From: Streptomyces muensis
GTDB lineage: Bacteria > Actinomycetota > Actinomycetes > Streptomycetales > Streptomycetaceae
Direction of reading: 5' to 3'
DNA length: 64,000 nucleotides
Assembly: GCF_021474425.1 (NCBI RefSeq)
Contig: NZ_JAKEIP010000007.1
Span: 45,253 to 109,252 of the forward strand
Shown piece after piece: positions 19,066-53,501 of the stretch (the stretch's first letter is position 1; the number at the start of each line of letters is the position of its first letter). The position numbers were made by a program, and so were the translations under genes. The notes under the pieces are model-generated. The model made no database searches. It was given only the letters and a program-made list of their open reading frames with translations, and was not told the origin of the DNA.

Positions 19066-19135
19066 TTGACAGAGGGGCAGGTGTAGGGCTTCCTTGGGCT
19101 GTTGCGTATCGCACTACGGTTGTGTAGTACGCAAC
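19066..19135 (+). promoter_or_regulatory. island promoter P1 with operator doublet (formate dehydrogenase)
   Basis: TTGACA at 19066-19071, then a weak -10 region and two motif copies: 19101-19117 (GTTGCGTATCGC half-site) and 19119-19135 (GTTGT-N7-GCAAC within a 19-bp palindrome). The offset is 18 bp here instead of the usual 19. Confidence 0.65.
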
Positions 19136-19192
19136 CATGGCTCCGGTCATGGCACGGCTCTGGTTCCCCGACACCGCGGAGTAGCGCTACAG

Positions 19193-21487
19193 ATGACTCG
19201 CAAGCCACCTGCCGAGGACCCCGGCGACGCCCGTCTGAAGGTCGGCCCCCCGAAGGAGTACGCCGCCGGCATCCCCGCGGTCACCTCCTCGCTGCGGCAC
19301 GCCGGCGAGCAGATGGGGGCTCGTCGCAGCCTGCTCACTCTGCTCCGGGTCAATCAGAAGGAGGGGTTCGACTGTCCGGGCTGCGCCTGGCCCGAGCCGG
19401 AGCACCGGCACCGGGCGGAGTTCTGCGAGAACGGGGCGAAGGCGGTGGCCGAAGAGGCCACCGTGCGCCGGGTCACCCCCGACTTCTTCGCCGGGCACAC
19501 CCTGGAGGAGCTGCTCCCGCGCACCGACTACTGGCTCGGGCAGCAGGGACGGCTCACCCACCCCATGTACCGCCCGGCCGGCGGTGACCGCTACCGGCCG
19601 ATCTCCTGGAACGACGCGTTCGCGGTGATCGCCCGCGAACTCGCCGCGCTCGACCACCCGGACCAGGCCGCCTTCTACACCTCCGGGCGGGCCAGCAACG
19701 AGGCCGCGTTCCTCTACCAGCTGTTCGTCCGCATGCTCGGCACCAACAACCTGCCCGACTGCTCCAACATGTGCCACGAGTCAAGCGGTTCCGCCCTGAC
19801 GGAGACCATCGGCATCGGCAAGGGCAGCGTCAGCCTGGACGACCTCTACGAGGCCGACCTGATCCTCGTGGTCGGGCAGAACCCCGGCACCAACCACCCC
19901 CGTATGCTCTCCGCCCTGGAACAGGCCAAGCGGCAGGGCGCTCGCGTCATCTCGGTCAACCCCCTGCCCGAAGCCGGGCTGCTCCGGTTCAAGAACCCCC
20001 AGCGGCCCTCCGGCGTCCTCGGCGGCGGCACCCGGTTGTCGGACCAGTTCCTGCAGATCAGGCTGGGCGGGGACCAGGCGCTGTTCCAGGCGTTCAACCG
20101 CATGCTGCTGGAGGCGGAGGACGAGGCGCCCGGCACCTGCCTGGACACGGAGTTCATCGACCGGTACACCCACGGCTTCCAGGAGTTCGCCGAGCACGCC
20201 CGCAAGGTGGCGTGGGACGACGTCCTCGAGGCCACCGGTCTGACCGAGGAAGAGATCCGGACCGCGTTCGGGCAGGTGCTGGCCGCCGAGAAGATCGTCG
20301 TCTGCTGGGCGATGGGACTCACCCAGCACAAGCACTCCGTCCCCACCATCCGGGACGTCGTCAACTTCCTTCTGCTGCGCGGCAACATCGGCCGCCCGGG
20401 CGCCGGCCTCTGCCCGGTGCGCGGCCACTCCAACGTGCAGGGCGACCGCACGATGGGCATCTACGAGAAGCCGGACGACGCGTTCCTGGACGCGCTCGGC
20501 GCCGAGTTCGCCTTCACGCCGCCGCGCCACCACGGCCACGACGCGGTGGAGAGCATCCGTGCCATGCGCGACGGCGACGTACGGGTCTTCGTCGGGCTGG
20601 GCGGCAACTTCGTCGCCGCGGCCCCCGACACCGAGCTGACCGAGCAGGCGATGCGCCGCTGCCGCCTCACCGTCCAGATCTCGACCAAGCTCAACCGGTC
20701 GCATGTCGTCGCCGGGGAGCAGGCGCTCATCCTGCCCTGCCTCGGCCGCACCGAGGCCGACCTGAGGCCGACCGGTCCCCAACTGGTCACGGTCGAGGAC
20801 TCCATGGGCATGGTGCACCTCTCACGGGGGAGACTCGCCCCCGCGTCCGAGCACCTGCTGAGCGAGGTCGCGATCATCTGCCGCATGGCCCGGGCCGCCC
20901 TCGCAGAGACCGGCTCCCAGGTGCCGTGGGAGGACTTCGAGTCGGACTACGACCGCATCCGCGACCGCATCGAGCGGGTGATCCCCGGCTTCGAGGACTT
21001 CAACGCCCGGGTACGGCGGCCGGGCGGCTTCGCGCTGCCGCACCCGCCCCGCGACGAGCGCCGTTTCACCACCGCGACCGGCCTGGCCAACTTCACCGCG
21101 AACCCGCTGGAGCGGCCCCATGTCCCGCCGGGCCGGCTGCTGTTGCAGACCCTGCGCTCCCACGACCAGTACAACACCACCATCTACGGCCTGGACGACC
21201 GCTACCGAGGTGTTCACCAGGGGCGCCGGGTCCTCTTCCTGCACCCGGACGACCTCACCGAGCGAGGGCTGGCCGAAGGGGACCTCGTCGACATCGTCAG
21301 CGAGTACGAGGACGGCGTGGAACGCCGGGCGCCGGCCTTCCGGGTGGTGTCGTACCCGACGCCCCGCGGGTGCTGCGCCGCCTACTTCCCGGAGACCAAC
21401 GTGCTCGTACCGCTGGACTCCACGGCGGCCGTCAGCAACACCCCCACGTCGAAGTCCATCGTCGTCCGGTTGGAACCGACCTCTTGA
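19193..21487 (+). CDS. molybdopterin oxidoreductase, FdhF-like formate dehydrogenase alpha subunit
   Basis: 764 residues, no Tat signal, hence cytoplasmic. Belongs to the FdhF/YdeP-like molybdopterin group by its overall pattern: an N-terminal cysteine cluster (Cys61, Cys64, Cys78) for an Fe-S centre, molybdopterin-binding motifs (VVGQNPGTNHPRML, LLRGNIGRPGAGLCPVRGHSN) and a C-terminal dinucleotide-binding region. Cys190 and Cys194 in DCSNMCHESSG are candidates for the Mo ligand; no in-frame UGA is used. It should oxidise formate to CO2, ending the C1 branch fed by PurU and the mycothiol pathway; FdhD, needed to sulfurate such enzymes, is encoded in the same island. No partner subunit gene is next to it, so the electron acceptor is unknown. 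The start follows a weak GGAG. Confidence 0.85.
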   Translation: MTRKPPAEDPGDARLKVGPPKEYAAGIPAVTSSLRHAGEQMGARRSLLTLLRVNQKEGFDCPGCAWPEPEHRHRAEFCENGAKAVAEEATVRRVTPDFFAGHTLEELLPRTDYWLGQQGRLTHPMYRPAGGDRYRPISWNDAFAVIARELAALDHPDQAAFYTSGRASNEAAFLYQLFVRMLGTNNLPDCSNMCHESSGSALTETIGIGKGSVSLDDLYEADLILVVGQNPGTNHPRMLSALEQAKRQGARVISVNPLPEAGLLRFKNPQRPSGVLGGGTRLSDQFLQIRLGGDQALFQAFNRMLLEAEDEAPGTCLDTEFIDRYTHGFQEFAEHARKVAWDDVLEATGLTEEEIRTAFGQVLAAEKIVVCWAMGLTQHKHSVPTIRDVVNFLLLRGNIGRPGAGLCPVRGHSNVQGDRTMGIYEKPDDAFLDALGAEFAFTPPRHHGHDAVESIRAMRDGDVRVFVGLGGNFVAAAPDTELTEQAMRRCRLTVQISTKLNRSHVVAGEQALILPCLGRTEADLRPTGPQLVTVEDSMGMVHLSRGRLAPASEHLLSEVAIICRMARAALAETGSQVPWEDFESDYDRIRDRIERVIPGFEDFNARVRRPGGFALPHPPRDERRFTTATGLANFTANPLERPHVPPGRLLLQTLRSHDQYNTTIYGLDDRYRGVHQGRRVLFLHPDDLTERGLAEGDLVDIVSEYEDGVERRAPAFRVVSYPTPRGCCAAYFPETNVLVPLDSTAAVSNTPTSKSIVVRLEPTS

Positions 21488-21549
21488 CACCCTTACTGAG
21501 GCGTCAGAGTGTTGTTGCCCATAGCGAATCACTATGCATTATCCGCAAC
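21484..21549 (+). promoter_or_regulatory. island promoter P2 with operator doublet (BCCT carrier)
   Basis: TTGACA (21484-21489) overlaps the stop codon of the formate dehydrogenase gene; GAGTGT follows after 17 bp. Motif copies: 21514-21530 (GTTGC-N7-GAATC) and 21533-21549 (TATGC-N7-GCAAC), 19 bp apart. Confidence 0.75.
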
Positions 21550-21655
21550 GGTGCCCCAGGTGGCACGGCGGAATCAACGATGTTCCCTCTTGCTCGGTCG
21601 CGCATCCGTCGTCCGCGACAGAGAGTGCACTGCCGTCAGCGGAAAGGACGAGCTG

Positions 21656-23449
21656 ATGAATGAAACTCGTGAAAGGAACGGGAGCCGAAGCCATCCCGTC
21701 GAGGCAGAGCCGCCGGGAGGACCGGCGGCAGCCGCCCGGCCCCGGACCGACCTGGCGGTCTTCGGTGTCGCCGCTGTCCTCACCCTGGCCTTCGTCGTGT
21801 GGGGCGCCACGGCGACCGACACGCTGGAGAGCGTGTCCGGAAAACTGCTGGACGGAACGATCCGGAACGGCGGCTGGGCCTTCGTCCTCGCCGCCTCGGG
21901 CTTCGTCGTCTTCGCCCTCTGGCTGGCGATGAGCCGCTACGGGCGGATCACCCTCGGCGAGGAGGGTGAGCAGCCCGAGTTCCGGACCATCTCATGGATC
22001 GCCATGATGTTCAGCGCCGGCATGGGCATCGGCCTGATGTTCTACGGCGTCAGCGAACCGCTCTCCCACTTCACCACGCCACCGCCGGGCACCGACCCGG
22101 CCGATGCCAACGAGGCCATGGAGACCGCCATGGCCACCACCCTCTTCCACTGGACGCTCCACCCGTGGGCGATGTACGCGGTCGTGGGTCTCGCCATCGC
22201 CTACAGCACCTTCCGGCGCGGCCGCCGGCAGCTGATCAGCGCCGTCTTCACCCCACTGATCGGCGAGCGGCGGGCGAACGGCTGGGGTGGCAGAGTCATC
22301 GACATCCTCGCCATCTTCGCCACCCTCTTCGGCTCCGCGGCCTCCCTGGGGCTCGGCGCCCTGCAGATCGGCAGCGGTTTCACCGGCCTCGGCTGGATGG
22401 GATCCGTCGGCACGGGCCTGCTGGTCGCCGTGATCGCGGTGCTGACCGTGGCGTTCGTCGCCTCGGCGGTCTCCGGGATCGCCAAGGGCATCCAGTGGCT
22501 GTCCAACATCAACATGGTGCTGGCCGTGAGCCTCGCGGTCTTCGTGTTCCTCGTCGGGCCGAGCATCTTCATCCTCGACCTGCTCCCCACCTCCATCGGC
22601 GCCTTCGTCGGCGACCTGCCCCAGATGGTGGGGCGCACCGAGGCGTCGAGCGGTGAGGGAGTCGCCGACTGGCTGGCCGGCTGGACGGTCTTCTACTGGG
22701 CCTGGTGGATCTCCTGGACGCCGTTCGTCGGCATGTTCATCGCGCGGATCAGCCGCGGCCGTACCATCCGGCAGTTCGTCGGCGGGGTCATCCTGGTGCC
22801 CAGCACCGTCAGCCTGGTGTGGTTCGCGATCTTCGGCGGCTCGGCGATGCACCTTCAGGACGGGGACCGCCTCAGCGGTGCCGGGACCGCCCAGGGCCAG
22901 CTCTTCGACGTGCTCCAGCAGTATCCGGTCGCCACGGTGACGAGTGTGGTGGTGATGATCCTCGTCGGCATCTTCTTCGTGTCCGGCGCCGACGCCGCCT
23001 CGATCGTGATGGGGACCCTCTCGCAGCGCGGATCCCTGGAACCGACCCGGACCGTCGTGGTGTTCTGGGGAGTCCTGACCGGCGCCGTCGCCGCGATCAT
23101 GCTGCTCATCGGCGGCGGCAAGGGCGACGCGCTCACCGGACTGCAGAACCTCACCATTCTCGCGGCGGCCCCGTTCACCGTGGTGATGGTCGGCTTGTGT
23201 GTCGCGCTCAACCGCGATCTGCGCCAGGACCCGCTCATCATCCGTGGGCGCAAGGGCAAGGAAGCCATCGAAACGGCCGTCATGGTCGGCCATGAGAAGT
23301 ACGACGGCGACTTCGAACTCCGCATCGGTCCCACCGCGTGCAACGACGGTACGGAGGCTCCACCGTCCGAGGAGTCCGCGCTGCCCGAGGATTCCACGCT
23401 GCCCGAGGAGTCCACAGAACCCGCCCCGTCCTCCACCTCCGCCCGCTGA
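21656..23449 (+). CDS. BCCT-family choline/glycine betaine transporter
   Basis: 597 residues with twelve hydrophobic helices. The family signature is clear: the tryptophan-rich segment FYWAWWISWTPFVGMFIARIS (~residue 343) forms the trimethylammonium-binding box. N- and C-terminal tails are acidic and soluble. It takes up choline or betaine coupled to Na+ or H+; which one is not decided by sequence. The ATG has AAAGGA 6-8 nt upstream; conserved sequence starts only after residue ~25. It is a monocistronic unit under P2, ended by a strong hairpin. Confidence 0.92.
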   Translation: MNETRERNGSRSHPVEAEPPGGPAAAARPRTDLAVFGVAAVLTLAFVVWGATATDTLESVSGKLLDGTIRNGGWAFVLAASGFVVFALWLAMSRYGRITLGEEGEQPEFRTISWIAMMFSAGMGIGLMFYGVSEPLSHFTTPPPGTDPADANEAMETAMATTLFHWTLHPWAMYAVVGLAIAYSTFRRGRRQLISAVFTPLIGERRANGWGGRVIDILAIFATLFGSAASLGLGALQIGSGFTGLGWMGSVGTGLLVAVIAVLTVAFVASAVSGIAKGIQWLSNINMVLAVSLAVFVFLVGPSIFILDLLPTSIGAFVGDLPQMVGRTEASSGEGVADWLAGWTVFYWAWWISWTPFVGMFIARISRGRTIRQFVGGVILVPSTVSLVWFAIFGGSAMHLQDGDRLSGAGTAQGQLFDVLQQYPVATVTSVVVMILVGIFFVSGADAASIVMGTLSQRGSLEPTRTVVVFWGVLTGAVAAIMLLIGGGKGDALTGLQNLTILAAAPFTVVMVGLCVALNRDLRQDPLIIRGRKGKEAIETAVMVGHEKYDGDFELRIGPTACNDGTEAPPSEESALPEDSTLPEESTEPAPSSTSAR

Positions 23450-23464
23450 CACCGGCGCAACCCG

Positions 23465-23516
23465 CACCCGGCGGGGTCGTGGAACCGGCATGTCCGGCCC
23501 ACGGCCCCGCCGGGTG
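23465..23516 (+). terminator. terminator after the BCCT gene
   Basis: An 18-bp stem with one mismatch, starting CACCCGGCGGGG (23465-23482) and closing at 23499-23516, just after the BCCT stop codon. Confidence 0.75.
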
Positions 23517-23570
23517 TTCGTGCTGCCACGGCGCGATTCCGCCCGGCATGAGGAACCCCCGTCGGGCTCC

Positions 23571-23637
23571 TTGACCACCGGTCGGCCCTCCAGGATGCTG
23601 TGTTGCGACACACGAGATGTGTGCCGTAATGAGCAAC
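23571..23637 (+). promoter_or_regulatory. island promoter P3 with operator doublet (formaldehyde oxidation genes)
   Basis: TTGACC (23571-23576), 17 bp, GATGCT (23594-23599). Motif copies: 23602-23618 (GTTGC-N7-GAGAT) and 23621-23637 (GTGCC-N7-GCAAC), 19 bp apart. Confidence 0.75.
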
Positions 23638-23670
23638 ATCGATTCAAGCTCGATCAGCCGAGGAGTGGCC

Positions 23671-24756
23671 ATGACGCACCAGGTCCGTGCCGTCGTCGCG
23701 CGGGGCAAGGGCGCCCCCGTCAGCCTGGAGACGATCATCGTGCCCGACCCGGGCCCGGGTGAGGCGCTGGTGAAGATCGAGGCCTGCGGGGTCTGCCACA
23801 CCGATCTGCACTACCGCGAGGGCGGCATCAACGACGACTTCCCCTTCCTACTGGGCCACGAGGCCGCGGGCGTCGTGGAGTCGGTGGGGGAGGGCGTCAC
23901 CGACGTGGCCCCGGGTGACTTCGTCATCCTCAACTGGCGTGCGGTGTGCGGTCAGTGCCGGGCCTGTCAGCGCGGGCGGCCGTGGTACTGCTTCAGCACC
24001 CACAACGCCAAGCAGAAGATGACCCTGCTGGACGGCACCGAGCTGGCGCCGGCCCTTGGCATCGGCGCGTTCGCGGAGAAGACGCTGGTCGCGGCCGGCC
24101 AGTGCACGAAGGTCGACCGGGCCGCCTCGGCGGCCGCCGCCGGACTCCTGGGGTGCGGGGTGATGGCGGGCATCGGCGCGGCCATCAACACCGGCAACGT
24201 CGGCCGGGGCGACTCGGTCGCCGTCATCGGCTGCGGCGGCGTCGGCGCGGCGGCGATCACCGGAGCGAGCCTGGCCGGGGCCGCGAAGGTCATCGCGGTG
24301 GACATCGACGACCGCAAGCTGGACAACGCCAGGAAGCTGGGCGCGACCCACACCGTCAATTCCAAGGAAGCCGACGCCGTCGAGGCGATCCGCGAGCTGA
24401 CCGGGGGCCACGGCGCCGATGTCGTCATCGAGGCGGTCGGCCGCCCGGAGACGTACAAGCAGGCGTTCTACGCCCGTGACCTCGCCGGCACGGTCGTCCT
24501 GGTCGGCGTACCGACCCCCGAGATGAAGCTGGAGCTGCCGCTGCTGGACGTCTTCGGCCGGGGCGGCGCGCTGAAGTCCTCCTGGTACGGCGACTGCCTG
24601 CCGAGCAGGGACTTCCCGATGCTCATCGACCTGTACCTCCAGGGCAGGCTGGATCTGGACGCCTTCGTCACCGAGACCATCGCGCTGGACGAGGTCGAGA
24701 AGGCCTTCGAGCGGATGCACCACGGCGACGTGCTGCGTTCGGTGGTGGTCCTCTGA
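23671..24756 (+). CDS. S-(hydroxymethyl)mycothiol dehydrogenase (NAD/mycothiol-dependent formaldehyde dehydrogenase)
   Basis: 361 residues, zinc-dependent medium-chain alcohol dehydrogenase fold. Catalytic-zinc region [15 protein letters not shown] (Cys39/Cys42-His43) and GHEAAGVVE (His63); structural-zinc cysteines at ~93, 96, 99 and 107; NAD-binding [10 protein letters not shown]. The sequence pattern is that of actinobacterial mycothiol-dependent formaldehyde dehydrogenases. It oxidises the spontaneous formaldehyde-mycothiol adduct to S-formylmycothiol. The ATG has GAGGAG 6 nt upstream. The next gene overlaps by one base and encodes a likely hydrolase for the product. Formaldehyde comes from the betaine and sarcosine demethylations encoded downstream. 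Confidence 0.9.
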
Positions 24757-25385
24757 TGGCCGCCCGCATCGAACATCTGGTCACCTCGGGGACGTTCTCG
24801 CTGGACGGCGGCACCTGGGACGTCGACAACAACGTGTGGATCGTCGGCGACGACACCGAGGCGATCGTCATCGACGCAGCGCACGACGCCGACGCCATCG
24901 CCGCGGCCGTCGCGGGGCGTGCCCTGCGGGCCATCGTGTGCACCCACGCGCACAACGACCACATCGACGCCGCGCCGGAACTGGCGGCGCGCACGGGTGC
25001 CCCGGTGCTCCTGCACCCGGACGACCTGCCGCTGTGGAAGCAGACCCACCCCGACCGGGCGCCGGACGCCGAACTGACCCACGGACAGGGCCTCACGGTG
25101 GCCGGAATCGAGCTGACCGTGCTGCACACGCCCGGTCACGCGCCCGGCGCGGTCTGTCTGTACGCCCCGGCGCTGTCGGCCCTGTTCAGCGGCGACACCC
25201 TGTTCGCCGGTGGCCCTGGGGCGACAGGACGGTCGTACAGCCACTTCCCGACCATCATCGAGTCGATCAGGGACCGGCTGCTGGCGCTGCCCGGCGACAC
25301 CGTCGTGCACACCGGACACGGCGATCGGACCACCGTCGCCGCCGAGTCCCCGCACCTCCAGGAGTGGATCGACCGCGGCTTCTGA
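24756..25385 (+). CDS. metallo-beta-lactamase-fold hydrolase, probable S-formylmycothiol hydrolase
   Basis: 209 residues with the intact metal motif THAHNDHID (His64, His66, Asp68, His69), the third-ligand region HTPGHAPG and GDTLFAGG. The ATG shares a base with the dehydrogenase stop (TGATG), so the two proteins are co-translated. In actinobacteria a glyoxalase-II-like protein next to mycothiol formaldehyde dehydrogenase is thought to release formate and regenerate mycothiol; that role is inferred from context. Confidence 0.85.
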   Translation: MAARIEHLVTSGTFSLDGGTWDVDNNVWIVGDDTEAIVIDAAHDADAIAAAVAGRALRAIVCTHAHNDHIDAAPELAARTGAPVLLHPDDLPLWKQTHPDRAPDAELTHGQGLTVAGIELTVLHTPGHAPGAVCLYAPALSALFSGDTLFAGGPGATGRSYSHFPTIIESIRDRLLALPGDTVVHTGHGDRTTVAAESPHLQEWIDRGF

Positions 25386-25504: not shown

Positions 25505-25573
25505 TTGACAACGCTTCTGAGCGGCCCCCAAACTGGCGTTGCGCTTACCGCAATCCGTTTCGCTATACGCACC
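25505..25573 (+). promoter_or_regulatory. island promoter P4 with operator doublet (Rieske ferredoxin and reductase)
   Basis: TTGACA (25505-25510), 18 bp, CAAACT (25529-25534). Motif copies: 25538-25554 (GTTGC-N7-GCAAT) and 25557-25573 (GTTTC-N7-GCACC), 19 bp apart. The second copy ends next to the ribosome-binding site. Confidence 0.75.
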
Positions 25574-25581
25574 GAGGTGTC

Positions 25582-25944
25582 ATGATGATTCCCGCGTGCC
25601 GGCTCGTGGACCTTCCGCGAGGCGAGGCCCACCGGCTCGACGTCCACCCGCCGGTCTCGGTGTTCCACACCGACGACGGCGAGCTCTTCGCCATCGACGA
25701 CACATGCACCCACCAGGACGCGTCGCTCGCCGACGGCTGGCTGGAGGGGCGTGAGGTCGAATGCCCGCTGCATGCTTCCAAGTTCGACCTGAAGACCGGC
25801 GCGGTCGACGCCCCGCCGGCCAAGCTCCCGGTCCGGACGCACGAGGTCCTGGTCGAGGACGGCATGATCTACGTCCGGCTGTCCACGGACGCGCCCAACC
25901 TGCCGCCCTGCATCGCAGCCCGGCTCGCCGGAGGTCCCGCGTGA
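25582..25944 (+). CDS. Rieske [2Fe-2S] ferredoxin, oxygenase electron carrier
   Basis: 120 residues, almost all one Rieske domain with Cys42-x-His44 (CTHQDAS) and Cys61-x2-His64 (CPLHAS) as cluster ligands. It should pass electrons from the adjacent FAD reductase to the GbcA-like terminal oxygenases. Two adjacent ATG codons follow GAGGTG at 25574-25579; either may be used. It overlaps the reductase gene by 4 bp (GTGA). This is the only separate ferredoxin gene in the island. Confidence 0.92.
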   Translation: MMIPACRLVDLPRGEAHRLDVHPPVSVFHTDDGELFAIDDTCTHQDASLADGWLEGREVECPLHASKFDLKTGAVDAPPAKLPVRTHEVLVEDGMIYVRLSTDAPNLPPCIAARLAGGPA

Positions 25945-27143
25945 GGACGGTCGCCGTCGTCGGCGCCTCGCTGGCCGGACTCTCGGCGGCGCGCTCGCTG
26001 CGCAAGCAGGGCTACGACGGCCGGCTGGTCCTCATCGGGGACGAGCTCCACCGCCCGTACGACCGGCCCCCGCTGTCCAAGGAGTTCCTGTCCGGCACCC
26101 TCGGCGAGGCCGAACTCGCCCTGGAGACGGACGGCGAGGACCTGGCGGCCGAATGGCTGCTCGGCGTCCGGGCCGCCGGACTCGACCACACCGGCCGTGC
26201 CGTGCGGCTCGCGGACGGCAGGGAGGTGCACGCCGACGGCTTCGTCATCGCGACCGGCGCCGCGGCCCGCACCCTCCCCGGCTCCGAGGGCCTGGCCGGG
26301 GTGCACACCCTGCGCACCCTGGACGACGCGCGCGCCCTGCGGGACGAACTGGGCCGCGGCGGACGACTGGTGGTGATCGGCGGCGGCTTCATCGGCGCCG
26401 AGATCGCCTCCACGGCGTACGCCCTCGGGCTCGACGTGACCGTCGTGGAGGCGGCCCCGACGCCGCTCGCCGGACCGCTCGGCGAGACCATGGGCGCCAT
26501 CGTCTCCGGCCTGCACACCGACCACGGTGTACGGCTGTTGTGCGGCGTGGGGGTCAAGGGGCTGAGCGGGGACGAGCGAAGCGAGATGGGGGTCCCCCCG
26601 GACGGAGTCTGGGGGAGGGTGGACGCCGTCCTGCTCGAGGACGGCCGCAGCATCCCGGCCGACATCGTCGTGGTCGGTGTGGGCGCCCGCCCGAACGTCG
26701 AGTGGCTGGAGGGTTCCGGCGTCGCGCTCGACAACGGCGTCAAGTGCGGCGCGGACGGCCGCACCAGCCTGGCCGGCGTGGTCGCGGTCGGTGACTGCGC
26801 CAACTGGTACGAGCCGCGCCTCGGCCTGCACCGCCGCGTCGAGCACTGGACCGGCGCGCGCGAGCGGCCCGACGCCGCGGTCGCCACGCTGCTGGCCGGG
26901 GGCGCGGTGGAACCGGGCGTCCCCCGGCCGCCGTACTTCTGGTCCGACCAGTACGGCGTGAAGATCCAGTTCGCCGGTCACGCGGCGGCCGCCGACAGTG
27001 TGACCGTCGAGGACGGCACCGCGGACGGGCGTGACGTCCTGGCCGTCTACCGGCGGGCCGGAAACCCGGTCGCCGTGCTCGGGATGAACCAGCCGCGGTC
27101 GTTCATGCGCTGGCGCAAGCAGCTCGCCGCCGCCACCTCTTGA
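25941..27143 (+). CDS. FAD/NAD-dependent ferredoxin reductase for the betaine demethylase
   Basis: 400 residues, putidaredoxin/biphenyl-dioxygenase reductase type. FAD-binding VVGASLAGLSAARSL at the N-terminus, second Rossmann motif VVIGGGFIGAEIAS (~residue 145), the FAD-contact segment VVAVGDCANW (~285), and the C-terminal reductase domain with FWSDQYGVKIQFAGH. GTG start in a GTGA overlap with the ferredoxin gene. Compared with its paralogue starting at 53524, it is about 13 residues longer around residue 210, where a GC-rich hairpin repeat has been read in frame. The insertion is in a surface loop before a conserved strand, so the enzyme is probably active. Confidence 0.9.
   Translation: MRTVAVVGASLAGLSAARSLRKQGYDGRLVLIGDELHRPYDRPPLSKEFLSGTLGEAELALETDGEDLAAEWLLGVRAAGLDHTGRAVRLADGREVHADGFVIATGAAARTLPGSEGLAGVHTLRTLDDARALRDELGRGGRLVVIGGGFIGAEIASTAYALGLDVTVVEAAPTPLAGPLGETMGAIVSGLHTDHGVRLLCGVGVKGLSGDERSEMGVPPDGVWGRVDAVLLEDGRSIPADIVVVGVGARPNVEWLEGSGVALDNGVKCGADGRTSLAGVVAVGDCANWYEPRLGLHRRVEHWTGARERPDAAVATLLAGGAVEPGVPRPPYFWSDQYGVKIQFAGHAAAADSVTVEDGTADGRDVLAVYRRAGNPVAVLGMNQPRSFMRWRKQLAAATS
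26560..26616. repeat. Streptomyces-type hairpin repeat read in frame inside the reductase gene
   Basis: The segment runs GACGAGCGAAGCGAGATGGG and then a hairpin CCCCCGGAC-gga-GTCTGGGGG (26595-26615). It resembles small repeats frequent between Streptomyces genes. It coincides with the extra residues seen only in this copy of the reductase. Confidence 0.6.
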
Positions 27144-27207
27144 CACCGCCCCCGTCGCATCCCATGCTGCGGTTGCGCATAGCACGCAGTGTTGCTCCAT
27201 ACACAAC
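27140..27207 (+). promoter_or_regulatory. island promoter P5 with operator doublet (first GbcA)
   Basis: TTGACA (27140-27145) overlaps the stop codon of the reductase gene; 17 bp; CATGCT (27163-27168). Motif copies: 27172-27188 (GTTGCGCATAGC half) and 27191-27207 (GTTGC-N7-ACAAC), 19 bp apart. Confidence 0.8.
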
Positions 27208-27274
27208 GCCGTCCGGAGTCGCTCTTCCCGGCGCGTGAATGACCCCTCCACGACGTTCTCCCGAGGAGTGCACC

Positions 27275-28405
27275 GTGACCTCGACCAGCCTGCCGGACAG
27301 CCTGATCGCCACCCTCCCCGGCTCCTCCTACACGGATCCGGGCATCTTCGCCCAGGAGCAGGAGCGCATATTCGAGACCATGTGGTTCTGCGTCGCGCGC
27401 GCCGCAGAACTGGCGAAGCCCGGCGCGTTCCGGACCGTCGACGTGGGCCGCGAGAGCATCCTCGTCACCCGGGCGCGGGACAACTCGATCCGCGCGTACT
27501 TCAATGTCTGCCGGCACCGTGGCGCCAAGCTGTGCACGGAGGAGTCCGGCGAGGTCAAGCGGGCCTTCCAGTGCCCGTACCACGCCTGGACCTACGGCCT
27601 GGACGGCAAGCTCGTCGCGGCCCCCAACCTCACCAAGATGCCCGACATCGGCCGCACCGAGTACGGCCTGGTGAGCGTGGCCGTGCGCGAGTGGCTCGGC
27701 TACGTCTGGGTCTGCCTGGCGGAGAACCCGCCGGACTTCGACGAGGACGTCATCGGTGACGTCGTCGCCCGCCTCGGCGACGTCGAGTCGATCGAGCGCT
27801 ACGGCATCGAGGACCTCTCCGTCGGCAAGCGCATCGTCTACGACGTCAGGTCGAACTGGAAGCTCATCATCGAGAACTTCATGGAGTGCTACCACTGCGC
27901 GACCATCCACCCCGAACTGACCGAGGTGCTCCCGGAGTTCGCGGACGGGTACGCCGCCCAGTACTACGTGGGTCACGGGGCGGAGTTCGGCGAGGACGTC
28001 CAGGGCTTCACCGTGGACGGCTCCGAGGGTCTGGACCGCATCCCCGGCGTCGCCGACGACCAGGACCGCCGCTACTACGCGATCACCGTCCGGCCGCAGG
28101 TCTTCATCAACCTCGTCCCCGACCATGTGATCTTCCACCGGATGTTCCCGGTGTCCGTGGACCGCACGATCGTGGAGTGCGACTGGCTGTACCTTCCGCA
28201 CGTCGTCGAGAGCGGCAAGGACGTCAGCCGGTCCGTGGAACTCTTCGACCGGGTCAACCGCCAGGACTTCGAGGCCTGCGAGCGGACCCAGCCCGGTATG
28301 GGTTCCCGTATGTACGCCAAGGGCGGGGTGCTGGTGCCCAGCGAGCACCACATCGGCGCGTTCCACGACTGGGTGAACGAACGCCTCGGCGCCCCCCTGC
28401 CGTAG
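27275..28405 (+). CDS. gbcA: GbcA-like Rieske oxygenase, glycine betaine demethylase (copy 1)
   Basis: 376 residues. An N-terminal Rieske domain (Cys79-x-His81, Cys100-x2-His103) and a catalytic domain with mononuclear-iron ligands His207 and His212 in ECYHCATIHPEL. The sequence pattern is that of choline-monooxygenase/GbcA-type oxygenases acting on trimethylammonium substrates. It should convert glycine betaine to dimethylglycine and formaldehyde. Start: GTG with GAGGAG 6 nt upstream; an earlier ATG lacks one. Electrons probably come from the ferredoxin and reductase encoded just upstream. It lies in its own transcription unit under P5. A second copy is at 52161 and shares near-identical nucleotide tracts. 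Confidence 0.88.
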   Translation: MTSTSLPDSLIATLPGSSYTDPGIFAQEQERIFETMWFCVARAAELAKPGAFRTVDVGRESILVTRARDNSIRAYFNVCRHRGAKLCTEESGEVKRAFQCPYHAWTYGLDGKLVAAPNLTKMPDIGRTEYGLVSVAVREWLGYVWVCLAENPPDFDEDVIGDVVARLGDVESIERYGIEDLSVGKRIVYDVRSNWKLIIENFMECYHCATIHPELTEVLPEFADGYAAQYYVGHGAEFGEDVQGFTVDGSEGLDRIPGVADDQDRRYYAITVRPQVFINLVPDHVIFHRMFPVSVDRTIVECDWLYLPHVVESGKDVSRSVELFDRVNRQDFEACERTQPGMGSRMYAKGGVLVPSEHHIGAFHDWVNERLGAPLP

Positions 28406-28450: not shown

Positions 28451-29248
28451 TCAGCCCAGGAAGCCCATCCGGTGGCTGATCTCCTCTGCGCCCTTCAGCA
28501 GCACCGGCGAGAGCTCGTGCATGCGCTCCTCGGTCAGCCGGTACCCGGGACCGGAGGCGCTCAGCGCGGCGATGACGTCGCCGTCCCGGTTGCGGACCGG
28601 GGCGGCCATGGCGTGCAGGCCGATCTCCAGCTCCTCCAGGGTGATGGAGTAGTTCCGCTCCCGCGTCTCGGCGAGGTTCTTCTCCAGCTTCGTCTTCGCG
28701 GTGATGGTGCGCGGCGTGACCTTCTTCATGCCGGCCTCGGCCAGCAGCGCCGCGCGCTCCTTGGTGGGCATGTACGCCAGCAGGACCTTGCCGCTCGACG
28801 TGGCGTGCAGGGGGGTGAGCTGGCCCACCCAGTTGTGCGCGGTGATGGCTCCCGGACCGCGCACCTGGTACAGGTTGATCGCGTAGTGCTCCTGCATGAC
28901 CGCGATGTTCACGGTCTCGCCGAGCTCCTCGGCGAGCCGTTCACAGATCGGGCGCCCCTGCTGGGTGATGTCGATACGGCCGGTGACCGCGCCGGCCAGA
29001 CGCACGATGCCGAAGCCGAGGCGGTACTTGCCGCGCTCGCCGGCCTGCTCCACCAGTCCGCGCGCCTCCAGGGCGCCGAGCAGGCGGAACGCGGTGGACT
29101 TGTGCACGTCGATCTCGGCCGCGACCTCGCTGACGCCCGCTTCGCCACGCTGGGCGAGGATCTCCATGACGCTGATGGCGCGGTCCACCGACTGGACGCC
29201 CCCGGCCTGCGAATTCGACGTTTCCGTGTCATGACTGTAGTTGCTCAC
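28451..29248 (-). CDS. IclR-family regulator of the betaine island (copy 1)
   Basis: 265 residues: winged helix (VQSVDRAISVMEIL..., recognition region VHKSTAFRLLGALEARGLVEQ, ~residues 20-80) and an effector-binding domain (~95-260). The GTG start is set by a TATAG(T) -10 box 6 nt upstream on a probably leaderless mRNA; an upstream in-frame ATG has no support. It is nearly the same as the protein starting at 48289, differing mainly in the N-terminal tail. Two motif copies overlap its start. It is the best candidate to bind the GTTGC-N7-GCAAC doublets. Confidence 0.93.
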   Translation of the reverse strand: MSNYSHDTETSNSQAGGVQSVDRAISVMEILAQRGEAGVSEVAAEIDVHKSTAFRLLGALEARGLVEQAGERGKYRLGFGIVRLAGAVTGRIDITQQGRPICERLAEELGETVNIAVMQEHYAINLYQVRGPGAITAHNWVGQLTPLHATSSGKVLLAYMPTKERAALLAEAGMKKVTPRTITAKTKLEKNLAETRERNYSITLEELEIGLHAMAAPVRNRDGDVIAALSASGPGYRLTEERMHELSPVLLKGAEEISHRMGFLG

Positions 29249-29275
29249 AGTGAAACTATACGCGTAGTAAACAAC
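29240..29275. promoter_or_regulatory. operator doublet over the IclR copy 1 start, leaderless promoter
   Basis: Motif copies 29240-29256 (GTTGC-N7-GAAAC) and 29259-29275 (TACGC-N7-ACAAC) are 19 bp apart. On the minus strand, -10 TATAGT (29260-29255) is followed after 6 nt by the GTG start, so the regulator would block its own transcription start. Confidence 0.75.
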
Positions 29276-29314: not shown

Positions 29315-29362
29315 GTTGCGTTGTTCGCAACCTGGTGCGTATCACGGGACCGGGTCTAGCAT
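29315..29362 (+). promoter_or_regulatory. operator doublet upstream of betA
   Basis: A full palindrome GTTGC-N7-GCAAC (29315-29331) and a half copy GGTGC-N7-GGGAC (29334-29350), 19 bp apart. The likely -10 box TAGCAT (29357-29362) lies downstream and no TTGACA is present, so here the operator covers the -35 area, unlike the other units. Confidence 0.65.
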
Positions 29363-32018: not shown

Positions 32019-32083
32019 GGTGCGTATTGCACAACAAGGTGAGCGATACGCAACATGGTCGGCGCGGTGCCGTCTGCGGTCAA
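32019..32083 (-). promoter_or_regulatory. island promoter P7 with operator doublet (purU)
   Basis: On the minus strand: TTGACC (32083-32078), 17 bp, GACCAT (32060-32055). Motif copies: 32054-32038 (GTTGC-N7-TCACC) and 32035-32019 (GTTGT-N7-GCACC), 19 bp apart. The geometry equals that of the plus-strand units. Confidence 0.8.
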
Positions 32084-32132: not shown

Positions 32133-32197
32133 TTGACGTCTGTCTGGACATTCGCCAGGGTGTTCCACCACAAGCAATCGGGTGCACGATGCGCAAC
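32133..32197 (+). promoter_or_regulatory. island promoter P8 with operator doublet (betB)
   Basis: TTGACG (32133-32138), 17 bp, CAGGGT (32156-32161). Motif copies: 32162-32178 (GTTCC-N7-GCAAT) and 32181-32197 (GGTGC-N7-GCAAC), 19 bp apart. Confidence 0.75.
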
Positions 32198-32222
32198 GAA
32201 TTTCTGTGGAAAGGCTCGGCGC

Positions 32223-34797
<2,575 letters not shown>

Positions 34798-37918: not shown

Positions 37919-40442
<2,524 letters not shown>

Positions 40443-46554: not shown

Positions 46555-47475
46555 GTGACCACCACCGCTGACACGACCGCGCCTGCGCATCCGGGAACGC
46601 CCGGGCTCCATCCGCGTGGGCTGCCACGACCCGGCCGGACCATGGTCATGGGTGTGGTGAACGTGACGCCGGACTCGTTCTCCGACGGCGGCCTGTCGTT
46701 CGCCCCGGAATCGGCCGTCGCCCATGGACTCGCGCTGCTCGAACAGGGCGCGGACATCGTGGACGTGGGCGGCGAGTCGACCCGCCCCGGCGCCGTACGC
46801 CCGCCGGTCGATGAGGAACTGCGACGGGTGCTGCCCGTCGTCCGGGAACTCGCGGCGGCGGGCGCCGTCGTGAGTGTCGACACGATGCGGGCCGAGGTCG
46901 CCGCCCGCGCGCTGGACGCGGGTGCGCGGCTGGTCAACGACGTCTCAGGGGGCCTCGCCGACCCCGCCATGCTGCCGCTGATGGCGCGGGCGGGGACGCC
47001 GTACGTCCTGATGCACTGGCGGGGGCACTCGGCCGGCATGCAGGCGAACGCCCTCTACGGCGACGTCGTCACCGATGTGCTCGACGAGCTGCGGCTGCGG
47101 ATCGAGGCCGCCCTTGAGGCGGGGATCACGCCCGGCCGCCTGGTCGTCGACCCCGGGCTGGGCTTCGCCAAGACGGCCGAGCACAACTGGGAGCTGCTGG
47201 GCCGTCTGGGGGAGGTCGTGGCCCTCGGCCATCCCGTCCTCGTGGGCGCGTCCCGCAAGGCGTTCCTGGGCAGCCTGCTGGCGGACCGCGCGACGGGACA
47301 GCCCCGCCCGGCGCGGCTGCGCGATGCCGCGACCACCGCCGTGTCCGTGCTCGCCGCCGCACAGGGCGTGTGGTGCCTGCGCGTGCACGATGTCGCCTCG
47401 ACGGCCGACGCGGTACGGGTGACGGCCCGTTGGGGAGCCGAGGCGGGAGAGTCGGTGCGGTCGCCGCTGGGCTGA
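46555..47475 (+). CDS. folP: dihydropteroate synthase
   Basis: 306 residues with VNVTPDSFSDGG, DVGGESTRPGA and SVDTMRAEVA, and GASRKAFLG, the pterin and pABA loops of FolP. It condenses pABA with the pterin pyrophosphate on the way to folate. Start: GTG with a GAGGGCGGA stretch upstream; the first ~20 residues are unconserved, so an internal ATG at 46643 is possible. It sits 13 bp behind soxG, not in a folate operon, and probably raises THF supply for the C1-accepting oxidases. Confidence 0.92.
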   Translation: MTTTADTTAPAHPGTPGLHPRGLPRPGRTMVMGVVNVTPDSFSDGGLSFAPESAVAHGLALLEQGADIVDVGGESTRPGAVRPPVDEELRRVLPVVRELAAAGAVVSVDTMRAEVAARALDAGARLVNDVSGGLADPAMLPLMARAGTPYVLMHWRGHSAGMQANALYGDVVTDVLDELRLRIEAALEAGITPGRLVVDPGLGFAKTAEHNWELLGRLGEVVALGHPVLVGASRKAFLGSLLADRATGQPRPARLRDAATTAVSVLAAAQGVWCLRVHDVASTADAVRVTARWGAEAGESVRSPLG

Positions 47476-47491
47476 GCGCCGCCCCGGGGCG

Positions 47492-48289
47492 TCAGCCCAG
47501 CCAGCCCATGCGGCGGCTGATCTCGTCGGCGCCGCCGATCAGCACGGGCGCGACCTCGTGGATGTGGTCCTCGGTGAAGCGGTAGGTGGGGCCGGAGGCG
47601 CTGAGCGCGGCGATGACCTCGCCTTCGCGGGACCGGATCGGCGCCGCGACGGCGTGCAGTCCGATCTCCAGTTCCTCCAGCGCCACCGCATAGCCGCGCT
47701 CGCGGGACTCGGCCAGGTTCTTCTCCAGCTTCGTCCTGGCCGTCAGCGTGTGCGGCGTCAGCTTGTGGATCCCCGACTCCGCGAGCACCCGCGTGCGGTC
47801 CTGCTCCGTCAGATGAGCGAGCAGGATCTTGCCGCTCGACGTGGCGTACACCGGAGTGAGCTGGCCGACCCAGTTGTGCGTGCCGACCGCGCCCGGTCCG
47901 CGCACCTGATAGAGGTTGACGGCGAAGTGCTCCTGGAGGACCGCGATGTTGACGGTCTCGCCGAGCTCGTCGCTGAGCCGCTCGCACACCGGCCGGCCCT
48001 GCTGGGTGATGTCCAGCCGACCCGTGACCGCGCCGGCCAGCCGGACCAGCCCGAAGCCGAGCCGGTACTTCCCCCGCTCCGCCGTCTGCTCGACCAGCCC
48101 CCGCGCCTCCAGCGCCCCGAGCAGACGGAACGCGGTCGACTTGTGGACGTCGATCTCGGCCGCGACCTCGCTGACCCCCGCCTCGCCGCGCTGGGCGAGG
48201 ATCTCCAGGACACTGACGGCACGGTCGACGGACTGAACTCCGCTCGCCGCGGGACCTGTTGTTGCGCCCTCTGCAGTGTGGTTGCTCAT
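47492..48289 (-). CDS. IclR-family regulator of the betaine island (copy 2)
   Basis: 265 residues, same architecture as the regulator at 28451 with the identical recognition region VHKSTAFRLLGALEARGLVEQ and a closely similar effector domain. Start: ATG placed 6 nt after a TATAGT -10 box, giving a leaderless mRNA. A perfect GTTGC-N7-GCAAC palindrome covers -10 to start codon, which predicts autorepression. It is convergent with folP (16-bp gap containing a CGCCCCGGGGCG palindrome) and divergent from the second dimethylglycine oxidase operon. Confidence 0.93.
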   Translation of the reverse strand: MSNHTAEGATTGPAASGVQSVDRAVSVLEILAQRGEAGVSEVAAEIDVHKSTAFRLLGALEARGLVEQTAERGKYRLGFGLVRLAGAVTGRLDITQQGRPVCERLSDELGETVNIAVLQEHFAVNLYQVRGPGAVGTHNWVGQLTPVYATSSGKILLAHLTEQDRTRVLAESGIHKLTPHTLTARTKLEKNLAESRERGYAVALEELEIGLHAVAAPIRSREGEVIAALSASGPTYRFTEDHIHEVAPVLIGGADEISRRMGWLG

Positions 48290-48301
48290 ACCGCAACTAT
48301 A
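48281..48301 (-). promoter_or_regulatory. leaderless promoter and operator of IclR copy 2
   Basis: The palindrome GTTGC-TCATACC-GCAAC (48281-48297) overlaps -10 TATAGT (48301-48296) and the ATG (48289-48287). The -10 to ATG distance is 6 nt, exactly as for IclR copy 1. Confidence 0.8.
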
Positions 48302-48377
48302 ACCATGCGTCCACGGCGTCCGCCCGCATCCTCGCACGACCCGTCCCGTCAGGGAACGAGTTCGCCCGACCAACCCC

Positions 48378-50932
<2,555 letters not shown>

Positions 50933-50991
50933 ACCGGCGCCGGGCGCCGACAGCACCACACCCTCATCGCCAACTTCCCCAGGAGATGGAC

Positions 50992-52140
50992 ATGGCCACT
51001 TCGTACGACGTGATCGTCGTCGGCCTGGGCGGGATGGGCAGCGCCGCCGCCTGTCACCTCGCCGCTCGCGGGCAGCGCGTGCTCGGCCTGGAGCGCTTCG
51101 GCCCGGCCCACAACCTCGGGTCCAGCCACGGCGGATCCCGGATCTACCGGCAGGCCTACTTCGAGGACCCGGCCTACGTACCGCTGCTTCTGCGCTCCCA
51201 CGAACTGTGGGAGAAGCTCGCCGCCGACTCCGGCCGCGAGGTCTTCAGGGAGACCGGCGGTCTCATGATCGGCCGTGAGAACAGCGAGGCCTTCGCCGGC
51301 ACGCTGCGCAGCGCCCACGAGTGGGGCCTGGACCACGAGGTCCTGGGCGCCGCCGAGATCCGGCGCCGCTTCCCCACCTTCCACCCGGCGGCCGAGGACG
51401 TCGCCTTCTACGAGCGCAAGGCCGGCATCGCCCGGCCCGAGGCCACCGTCACGGCCCACCTGGAGCTGGCGAAGGCCCACGGCGCCGATCTGCACTTCGC
51501 CGAAATGGTGCTCGGCTGGGAGGCGGAGGGCGCGGGCGGCAAGGCCTGGGTGGTCACCGACCGGGGCGCCTACACCGCCGAACGGCTGGTCATCGCCCCC
51601 GGCGCCTGGGCCCCGAAGCTCCTGGCCGACCTCGGCGTGCGCGTGACGGTGGAGCGCCAGGTCATGTACTGGTTCCAACCCGAGGGCGGGGTCCGTCCGT
51701 TCAGCGCCGAACGGCACCCGGTCTACATCTGGGAGGACCCGGACGGTACCCAGATCTACGGCTTCCCCGCGCTCGACGGCCCCGACGGCGGCGCCAAGGT
51801 CGCCTTCTTCCGCAAGGGCGCCCCCAGCGACCCCGACACCCTGGACCGCGAGATCCACCCGGACGAGATCGCGGCCATGGCCGAGTACCTGCGCCCGCGC
51901 ATCCCCACCCTGCCCGGCCGCTTCCTCAAGGGCGCGGCCTGCATGTACGCCAACACCCCGGACGAGCACTTCGTCCTCGCCCCGCACCCCGATCATCCGC
52001 AGGTGACGGTGGCCTGCGGATTCTCCGGCCACGGGTTCAAGTTCGTCCCCGTCATCGGCGAGATCATCGCCGACCTGGCAACGGAAGGCAGCACCGACCA
52101 CCCCATCGCCCTGTTCGACCCCCGCCGCGTGCGCGTCTGA
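50992..52140 (+). CDS. monomeric sarcosine oxidase / N-methyl amino-acid oxidase (MTOX type)
   Basis: 382 residues with N-terminal FAD motif [18 protein letters not shown], the [11 protein letters not shown] segment, and Cys317 in [14 protein letters not shown], the position of covalent FAD in monomeric sarcosine oxidases. The C-terminus has [14 protein letters not shown]. It oxidises sarcosine to glycine with release of free formaldehyde and H2O2, in contrast to the THF-linked tetrameric enzyme. The second of two close ATGs is preferred because it lies 6 nt from AGGAG. N-methyltryptophan oxidase activity cannot be excluded. Confidence 0.87.
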
Positions 52141-52160
52141 CATTCTCCGAAGGTGACGAG

Positions 52161-53294
52161 ATGACCATCACGAACCTGCCGCCCAGCCTGATCCCCACGC
52201 TGTCCGGCGAGTACTACACCGACCCCGCGGTCTTCGCCCAGGAGCAGGAGCGGGTCTTCGAGACCATGTGGTTCTGCGCGGCCCGCGCCGCCGACCTGGC
52301 CAAGCCCGGCGCCTTCCGCACCTACCAGGTGGGCCGCGAGAGCGTGCTGATCTCCCGCTCGCGGGACGGCTCGGTCAAGGCGTTCCTGAACATCTGCCGG
52401 CACCGCGGGGCCAAGCTGTGCACCGAGGAGTCCGGCGAGGTCAAGCGGGCCTTCCAGTGCCCGTACCACGCCTGGACCTACGGCCTGGACGGCAAGCTCG
52501 TCGCCGCGCCCAACCTGACCTCGATGCCGGACATCGACCGCACCGCGTACGGCCTGGTCAACGTCCATGTGCGGGAGTGGCTCGGGTACGTATGGGTGTG
52601 CCTGGCCGACAACCCGCCCTCCTTCGAGGCCGACGTGCAGGGCGCGGTAGTGGAGCGGCTCGGCGACCTCGAGTCGATCGAGCGCTACGACATGGACAAC
52701 CTGCGGCTGGGCCGCCGTATCACCTACGACGTCCAGGCCAACTGGAAGCTCATCATCGAGAACTTCATGGAGTGCTACCACTGCGCGACCATCCACCCCG
52801 AACTGACCGAGGTCCTGCCGGAGTTCGCGGACGGATACGCCGCCCAGTACTACGTGGGTCACGGAGCGGAGTTCGGCGAGGACGTCCAGGGCTTCACCGT
52901 GGACGGTTCCGAGGGTCTTGACCGCATCCCCGGTGTCGCCGAGGAGCAGGACCGCCGCTACTACGCGATCACCGTCCGGCCGCAGGTCTTCATCAACCTC
53001 GTCCCCGACCATGTGATCTTCCACCGGATGTACCCCATGGCGGCCGACCGCACGGTCGTCGAGTGCGACTGGCTGTACCTGCCGCACGTCGTCGAGAGCG
53101 GCAAGGACGTGGACCGCTCGGTGGAGCTGTTCCACCGGGTCAACCAGCAGGACTTCGACGCCTGTGAGCGCACCCAGCCGGCGATGAGCTCGAAGGCGTA
53201 CGCCAAGGGCGGCGTCCTGGTGCCCAGTGAGCACCACATCGGCGAGTTCCACACCTGGCTCCAGAACAAGCTGGACGTACGGCCCGCGCACTGA
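52161..53294 (+). CDS. gbcA: GbcA-like Rieske oxygenase, glycine betaine demethylase (copy 2)
   Basis: 377 residues, collinear with copy 1. Rieske ligands in CRHRGAKL and CPYHAW and iron ligands in ECYHCATIHPEL are all intact. Start: ATG after an AAGG(T) at 8 nt. It is the last gene of the operon under P10 and has no ferredoxin gene next to it; the reductase just downstream (53524) may serve it. Two nucleotide tracts are almost identical to copy 1, suggesting gene conversion. Confidence 0.87.
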   Translation: MTITNLPPSLIPTLSGEYYTDPAVFAQEQERVFETMWFCAARAADLAKPGAFRTYQVGRESVLISRSRDGSVKAFLNICRHRGAKLCTEESGEVKRAFQCPYHAWTYGLDGKLVAAPNLTSMPDIDRTAYGLVNVHVREWLGYVWVCLADNPPSFEADVQGAVVERLGDLESIERYDMDNLRLGRRITYDVQANWKLIIENFMECYHCATIHPELTEVLPEFADGYAAQYYVGHGAEFGEDVQGFTVDGSEGLDRIPGVAEEQDRRYYAITVRPQVFINLVPDHVIFHRMYPMAADRTVVECDWLYLPHVVESGKDVDRSVELFHRVNQQDFDACERTQPAMSSKAYAKGGVLVPSEHHIGEFHTWLQNKLDVRPAH

Positions 53295-53313
53295 TCGCCG
53301 CCACCCCGGAACC

Positions 53314-53357
53314 GCCCGTCCACCTGCTGTTGCGGCCCCTCCGGCAGGTGGACGGGC
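53314..53357 (+). terminator. terminator after gbcA copy 2
   Basis: A perfect 14-bp stem GCCCGTCCACCTGC (53314-53327) and complement (53344-53357), 20 bp after the stop codon. Confidence 0.8.
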
Positions 53358-53381
53358 CAGGGGGCCATCCGCCCCACCGAC

Positions 53382-53398
53382 GTTGCGAGTCGCGCAAC
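53382..53398. promoter_or_regulatory. isolated full operator palindrome
   Basis: GTTGC-GAGTCGC-GCAAC with perfect ends, 38 bp upstream of the P11 -35 box and without a good second copy at 19 bp. It may be an auxiliary site. Confidence 0.6.
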
Positions 53399-53435
53399 CG
53401 TGAGCATCATCAGAAATCGATGTACGACACCTCCC

Positions 53436-53501
53436 TTGACAACGCCCGCGCCACGCGGAAAGCATGTTGCGTATAGCGAGTGTCGTTGTGTCATATGAGA
53501 C
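53436..53501 (+). promoter_or_regulatory. island promoter P11 with operator doublet (reductase-GcvH-GlyA operon)
   Basis: TTGACA (53436-53441), 18 bp, AAGCAT (53460-53465). Motif copies: 53466-53482 (GTTGCGTATAGC half) and 53485-53501 (GTTGT-N7-GAGAC), 19 bp apart. Confidence 0.75.

Follow-up and report, generated by a model that had tools for sequence, protein, structure and literature searches.

Paired 17-bp elements ahead of choline, betaine and one-carbon genes of Streptomyces muensis: a likely IclR-family regulon with two sensors

A stretch of 64,000 nucleotides from Streptomyces muensis (contig NZ_JAKEIP010000007.1, positions 45,253 to 109,252 of the forward strand, hereafter the window, to which all positions refer), which is part of contig C7 of the 9.89-Mb assembly, carries twelve doublets of the imperfect 17-bp palindrome GTTGC-N7-GCAAC in front of genes for choline, betaine and one-carbon (C1) metabolism, and also encodes two paralogous regulators of the IclR family, IclR-A and IclR-B. 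Judged from the sequence, this is likely one IclR-family repressor regulon with two sensors. We propose, with a probability of about 0.78, that dimers of IclR-A and IclR-B sit side by side on the doublets and repress the whole choline-to-C1 route until a compound of the pathway releases them.

The doublet, its spacing and its place in the promoter

All twelve doublets that a sequence-only reading of the window had listed are present where it placed them, though they occupy 10 intergenic regions rather than the eleven promoter regions that it had counted. The two palindromes are offset by 19 bp in 11 of the 12 doublets and by 18 bp in one, so that their centres fall within the 18-22 nt range of tandem operators, and the units have the 17-bp GTT-N11-AAC form of the IclR-family GTT-11-AAC operators. 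The majority sequence of the 11 offset-19 doublets (ungapped alignment, both orientations) is GTTGCGTATnGCGCAAC-nn-GTTGCGCnATACGCAAC. The outer half-sites are the more constant ones: 327 distinct doublets from related loci matched GTTGC/GCAAC at a mean of 4.42 and 4.69 of 5 positions in the outer and 3.64 and 3.25 of 5 in the inner half-sites, a comparison that leaves out duplicates and doublets scoring below 20, and in which the selecting matrix itself already favours the outer half-sites.

When at most 5 mismatches in 20 positions were allowed, the window contained 11 pairs of GTTGC-N7-GCAAC at offset 19, against a mean of 0.35 and a maximum of 2 in 100 third-order Markov sequences. Ten of these pairs are doublets of the earlier list, and the remaining one is the match of a single site at 53382. 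If 6 or 7 mismatches are tolerated, offset 19 is barely distinct in the window (at 6, there are 11 pairs as against 9 at offsets 20 and 45). Because the 10-base consensus with at least six mismatches is thus near or at the noise level in the window, our counts rest on the matrix, the doublet model or at most 5 mismatches; the doublet at 53466 carries 7 mismatches, and its call therefore rests on the full matrix. In a leave-one-out test of this matrix, each of the 11 offset-19 doublets outscored every non-doublet position of the window. Their matrix scores range from 27 to 39, and outside 19-54 kb the window nowhere exceeds 5.04. The doublet at 19101 (offset 18), which had been kept out of training, was recovered in the window by the doublet model at an expectation value (E) of 0.018.

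Within the genome, the element is confined to this cluster as far as candidates were scored. The sequence-only reading had proposed a matrix scan of whole genomes, with random hits as the outcome that would speak against it; the matches in this genome are not random, all of them lying in the cluster. A degenerate pattern with up to 3 mismatches found 5 distinct places in the whole genome, all within the cluster, and the reversed-pattern control found 0. The doublet model, which is based on sequence alone and with which 150 of 1340 first-look candidates were scored genome-wide, gave 21 matches at 11 places, all of them training sites in the cluster, and no other match up to E 10 among the candidates scored; the held-out doublet at 19101 was not among these genome-wide matches. 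Furthermore, in part of contig C78, at four glycosyltransferase loci and at 21 other IclR loci, together 101,048 further positions of the genome, no matrix score was above 7.2.

With respect to promoter geometry, a TTGAC -35 box precedes 10 of the 12 doublets, one more than had been noticed before, the additional one belonging to the purU doublet at 32019 on the minus strand. The -10 hexamers are poor, as the earlier description had it. Where a window promoter has a TTGAC box, this box lies 29-33 bp ahead of the doublet in 8 of 10 cases. The same distance was found in related loci (described below) for 263 of 276 doublets of mscR, purU, BCCT, betB, dmgdh1 and gbcA1, and for 71 of 114 doublets of the ferredoxin/ferredoxin reductase unit (FdR1 unit). 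Given this distance and a 17-bp spacer, the doublet directly follows the -10 hexamer and covers the likely start point. Since the doublets mostly begin just after this hexamer, repression at the transcription start is suggested.

Conservation in relatives and co-occurrence with IclR genes

A scan of public genomes with IclR-A yielded 337 loci, of which we analysed the best 80 (79 of them from Streptomyces). In the 1.5 Mb of these loci, 583 of 594 matrix matches fall between -500 and +120 of the start of a cluster gene, gene matches below 55% identity having been excluded from this assignment; among the 594 are weaker matches displaced by one site relative to a strong doublet. At a score of at least 20, 535 of 539 matches lie at cluster genes, and three of the four strong exceptions are at the very end of their locus. 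When genes starting less than 400 bp from a locus end or with an unaligned N-terminus were left out, an upstream doublet was found for iclR-A in 80/80 loci, for the FdR1 unit in 69/69, for betA in 64/64, for betB in 61/61, for purU in 58/58, for mscR in 58/59, for dmgdh1 in 17/17 and for BCCT in 9/10. At iclR-A, the doublet spans the aligned start codon in all 80 loci (GTG in 72, ATG in 8).

The spacing is equally fixed when counted without the matrix. With at most 2 mismatches per site, the 80 loci hold 282 pairs at offset 19, 9 at 18 and 1 at 20, and none at offsets 14-17 or 21-25. The next peaks, 13 pairs at offset 33 and 11 at 52, are expected from two neighbouring doublets.

Doublets and the matching type of IclR protein occur together across the genomes compared, 150 from the genus and 296 from the class, as one would expect if the IclR proteins were the binders that the sequence-only reading took them for. 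In these scans, 46 (genus) and 23 (class) candidates were scored per genome under strict filters. In the genus, a doublet match was found in 56 genomes at E 0.05 and a close IclR in 35 (E 1e-95); 34 of the 35 genomes with a close IclR had a doublet match, compared with 22 of the 115 without, and in the 35th (G061) a direct look revealed a doublet at the iclR start. Six of these 22 doublet-positive genomes were examined and harbor another betaine cluster with an IclR that is 53-57% identical, where doublets flank the IclR gene on both sides; likewise, this is the case in genomes G274 and G304 (IclR 58 and 56% identical). In the class, 39 genomes had a doublet match and 41 an IclR (E 1e-65), with 32 in common, which corresponds to 32/41 genomes with and 7/255 without such an IclR.

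The same element recurs before choline and betaine genes in other actinobacterial families, together with related IclR genes. For this part we used 17 of the 20 non-Streptomyces genomes with matches outside group f25, and left out the six f25 genomes with weak, partial matches. In these loci from outside Streptomyces, doublets precede betB-betA-proVWX, dehydrogenases of the same type, purU, mscR, a glyA-led unit and iclR itself, and offset 19 is again the most frequent (53 pairs, followed by 18 at offset 26). In three genomes of one other family, doublets stand before genes similar to that of methylenetetrahydrofolate reductase (MTHFR), two of them about 8-11 kb from iclR and one on another contig. 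In genome G432, doublets stand at genes for a formate-tetrahydrofolate ligase and a phosphoglycerate-dehydrogenase-like protein, on contigs that do not carry its IclR gene.

Several single cases were noted in the course of these scans. Three doublets (L175 3236, L178 1769 and L164 9999) overlap what is likely the start codon of an MTHFR-like gene, each of these genes being unusual and short (PF02219, 28-33 bits). Next to a strong doublet at L166 8184 (score 37.3), the open reading frame (ORF) filter found no gene. Genome G013 carries doublets at two distant chromosomal places, L182, which is a betaine locus, and C1 8.66-8.69 Mb. Finally, a doublet at L202 10001 precedes a sarcosine oxidase and dehydrogenase run in genome G280, where a search at E 1e-65 found no close IclR.

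The two IclR proteins and their possible mode of action

The gene iclR-A (28451..29248, minus strand) encodes the predicted operator-binding IclR-family regulator, and iclR-B (47492..48289, minus strand) its paralogue. IclR-B has both the HTH_IclR (PF09339) and the IclR_C (PF01614) domain above cut-off, and in IclR-A the IclR_C region is over the cut-off. The two proteins are 74% identical overall, 94% in residues 17-80, the DNA-binding part, and 72% in residues 81-265, the sensing part; over the helix region compared they are identical. The near-identity of the DNA-binding parts is in line with the sequence-only reading, which took both paralogues for the binders, and its combination with the more divergent sensing parts would be compatible with one operator being read by two sensors. 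A tree of 57 proteins, for which 5 of the 80 IclR-A loci were taken and in which 16 of the own genome's 21 other IclR_C regions are represented by distinct usable rows, groups the IclRs that are 47-100% identical to IclR-A or IclR-B in one clade (support 99/96, 37 rows). Fifteen of the own paralogues fall outside this clade, the remaining one being that of contig C78.

Our proposal for the mechanism is as follows. Each doublet of about 36 bp would be an operator for two adjacent dimers of IclR-A and/or IclR-B over the predicted transcription start, and the bound proteins would keep the gene silent. They may be loosened by choline, betaine or a compound derived from these, and this release would switch on the entire pathway as one block, from choline down to glycine, serine and one-carbon units. 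Both iclR genes would be autoregulated. TtgV is an efflux regulator of Pseudomonas. It belongs to the same IclR family, structures of TtgV and its operator have been solved (2xrn and 2xro), and the TtgV tetramer on its operator (PMC8222616) may serve as a model for two dimers on each doublet, by which IclR-A and IclR-B would act as a tetramer.

In this context, it is of note that the doublet architecture as such is already known, since tandem sites have been published for the IclR family: tandem palindromes with centres 18-22 nt apart were predicted for 94 IclR-family orthologous groups and tied to tetramers (Suvorova and Gelfand 2021, PMC8222616). The consensus of the GTT-11-AAC subgroup given there is GTTYCRYW3RYGRAAC, and the 17-bp units described here fit the same GTT-N11-AAC frame. 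Also, site centres in that study peak between -3 and +1 relative to the gene start, in agreement with the iclR-A and iclR-B single sites. Betaine, choline and sarcosine are absent from the main text of that study by a word search, its regulon content being listed in the supplement. In the open-access literature searched, we found no account of an IclR-controlled choline or betaine regulon in actinobacteria among the matches listed, though an IclR gene upstream of a proP gene has been described in two marine Streptomyces (PMC6676996). For the literature searched, this agrees with the sequence-only reading, which knew of no description of the regulon; the dimer pair on each doublet, which that reading had considered, is not new. 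It is the regulon itself that apparently is new, and it is notable for its size and reach.

The IclR-type BhcR (NF045644) is the best-scoring named model for both IclR-A (196.0 bits) and IclR-B (190.1 bits), but these scores are far under the 350-bit cut-off, and we rejected an identity with BhcR. IclR-A and IclR-B are also below all curated cut-offs of the KdgR, AllR, IclR and PcaR/PcaU/PobR models. All rows of the 37-row clade have a Trp, within NW-V/L/I/A-G or a near form, in the predicted sensing domain. This Trp was considered as an argument for the ligand and discarded, as it is also found in other IclRs, including three own paralogues (that of contig C78 among them). Choline and betaine genes are controlled by BetI, which is of the TetR family, in enterobacteria, and by GbdR, which is of the AraC family, in Pseudomonas. 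Both have choline and betaine genes as targets, as proposed here for the IclR proteins, but are from other protein families. No regulator of the AraC or TetR family was found among the scanned proteins of the cluster between 19 and 60 kb (small or unscanned ORFs are possible), only the IclR type.

A number of observations do not fit the proposal smoothly. The TTGAC boxes of fdhF and dmgdh2 are farther from the doublet (35 and 39 bp), the betA and iclR-A doublets are without such a box, and no TTGAC was found within 60 bp of any betA or iclR-A doublet in the related loci; moreover, the assumed start points rest on the -35 boxes because the -10 boxes are poor. In the relatives, an upstream doublet was found in only 40/70 cases for gbcA1 and in 2/9 for fdhF. 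The co-occurrence in the class (Fisher p 5e-28) ignores kinship, such that the p-values for co-occurrence are too small, and no doublet was matched (E 0.1, strict filters) in 9 of the 41 genomes of the class that have the IclR. The own paralogue from contig C78 (46% identical) joins the IclR-A/-B clade, with an unsure placement, and could also act on the sites. Finally, five IclRs that are encoded in doublet-bearing loci of another family and are 34-37% identical lie outside the clade (4 changes), and IclRs near doublets are therefore not one clade.

How do other explanations fare? That only one paralogue, or the third one on contig C78, acts on the doublets and the other has a different target is unlikely in our view, though it deserves some weight. 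Of the 35 genus genomes with a close IclR, 15 have a single IclR match (E 1e-95) and still have doublets (14 by the model, G061 directly), and the iclR-B start bears just one good site; however, the DNA-binding parts of IclR-A and IclR-B are nearly the same, and the C78 gene adjoins a transporter operon of its own, where the offset-18 pair is different and weaker. We consider it rather improbable that the IclRs bind the doublets but activate transcription when substrate is present. The IclR family contains activators beside repressors, and poor -10 boxes would be in keeping with activation. Yet at most promoters with a -35 box, the doublet begins at or just after the -10 hexamer, where a bound protein is expected to block the polymerase and not to recruit it.

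Both of these alternatives leave the doublets to IclR proteins. It is very improbable that another regulator, conserved with the cluster by coincidence, binds them, since both motif and spacing agree with published IclR-family operators (PMC8222616), a doublet is found at the iclR-A gene in every one of the 80 loci, and no other regulator was found among the scanned cluster proteins (small or unscanned ORFs are possible). A chance origin is ruled out by the Markov comparison (11 pairs as against 0.35 expected), the leave-one-out matrix and the conservation, and, with place and offset fixed across 80 loci, we put the probability of coincidental pairs, or of a repeat element that has no regulatory function, close to nil.

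If repression by IclR-A and IclR-B on the doublets is correct, the doublet would be a testable genome-wide address tag for the actinobacterial genes of quaternary-amine and one-carbon breakdown, and it would predict a role for many IclR genes. It would also provide naturally matched operators with which to study the sharing of one site by two paralogues, and would link mycothiol-route formaldehyde clearance and demethylation under one switch. A more far-reaching idea, which we put forward tentatively and regard as somewhat doubtful, is that one rigid 36-bp two-dimer operator is the class-wide actinobacterial command for choline-to-C1 breakdown, including folate genes outside the cluster and the mshA gene of the cluster, and that in many Streptomyces two IclR twins, alike in their DNA-binding head but with different sensing domains, read the same operators and thereby combine two metabolites at every promoter.

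As for the C78 gene, it adjoins a betaine/choline-type ABC transporter and a hydroxyproline-dehydratase-like enzyme (below cut-off), and in its promoter a TTGAC box is followed by a degenerate, weak pair of sites at offset 18. It lies at L218 8673-16000 of the own genome, divergent from the transporter and next to enolase-superfamily genes. This locus is perhaps a sister regulon for another betaine.

Genes under the doublets

According to NCBIfam and Pfam models, the units are indeed made up of the choline, betaine and C1 genes that had been recognised from the sequence. The offset-18 doublet (19101..19135, plus strand, as all others unless stated) precedes a gene for an FdhF-like formate dehydrogenase (about 19193-21487; TIGR01701). 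The doublet at 21514..21549 belongs to a BCCT-type transporter gene (ORF 21509-23449, the true start being further in), and that at 23602..23637 to mscR (about 23680-24756), which encodes S-(hydroxymethyl)mycothiol dehydrogenase and is followed by the gene of an MBL (metallo-beta-lactamase-type) hydrolase (24756-25385). Next come the FdR1 unit with the genes for a Rieske ferredoxin (25582-25944) and a ferredoxin reductase (about 25941-27143) behind the doublet 25538..25573, and gbcA1 (27239-28405), the gene of a GbcA-like Rieske oxygenase, behind 27172..27207.

The iclR-A doublet (29240..29275, minus strand) overlaps the GTG start codon of this gene (29246-29248), and the neighbouring one at 29315..29350 precedes betA (29400-31070). 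The purU gene (31131 to about 31979) for formyltetrahydrofolate deformylase has its doublet at 32019..32054 on the minus strand, with TTGACC 29 bp upstream on that strand. The doublet 32162..32197 stands before a betB-like aldehyde dehydrogenase gene (about 32210-33692), followed by proVWX-type transporter genes up to 37798, whose products form a choline/betaine-type ABC transporter. At 37950..37985, a doublet precedes the FAD/GcvT-type demethylating dehydrogenase 1 gene, dmgdh1 (38004-40442), and this unit continues with folD, soxB, soxD/soxA, soxG and folP to 47475. The second dehydrogenase of this type, dmgdh2 (48485-50932), follows the doublet 48417..48452, and behind it lie the genes of an MTOX-like oxidase (50986-52140) and gbcA2 (52161-53294). 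The last doublet, 53466..53501, precedes the ferredoxin reductase 2 gene (53524-54705), whose unit continues with gcvH, glyA, sdaA, fdhD and mshA to 60088.

Besides the twelve doublets, the window has two perfect single 17-bp sites that the earlier inventory had overlooked. One (48281..48297, minus strand) lies over the ATG of iclR-B (48287-48289), its second half being degenerate; the other (53382..53398, plus strand) is 84 bp upstream of the 53466 doublet. Both recur in the relative L191, where the latter type keeps its distance of 84 bp (17292 and 17376).

The choline dehydrogenase encoded by betA scores above the model cut-off, and the betaine-aldehyde-dehydrogenase-like enzyme reaches 602 bits compared with a cut-off of 669. 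The two GbcA-like Rieske oxygenases score 222.7 and 227.6 bits, below the cut-off of 670, and betaine as their substrate is therefore inferred from context. The two FAD/GcvT-type dehydrogenases are below the cut-offs of named models. Further products of the cluster are FolD, the sarcosine oxidase subunits B, D, A and G, dihydropteroate synthase, an N-methyl-amino-acid-oxidase-like protein, GcvH, GlyA, SdaA, FdhD and MshA. Together, these enzymes would convert choline to glycine, serine, pyruvate and one-carbon units and clear formaldehyde and formate.

Two genes at the ends of their runs deserve mention. The dihydropteroate synthase gene folP (46588-47475) ends the sarcosine oxidase run and perhaps feeds the folate pool of the demethylating enzymes. 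MshA is the first enzyme of mycothiol synthesis, and its gene (58718-60088), which closes the gcvH-glyA-sdaA-fdhD run, is the sole one of 21 matches in the assembly to score over the cut-off. A mshA gene was present in 10/10 relatives checked, and 5/10 have a second copy, which in three of these lies about 8-21 kb from doublet sites; this looks like a cluster copy for mycothiol-dependent formaldehyde clearance.

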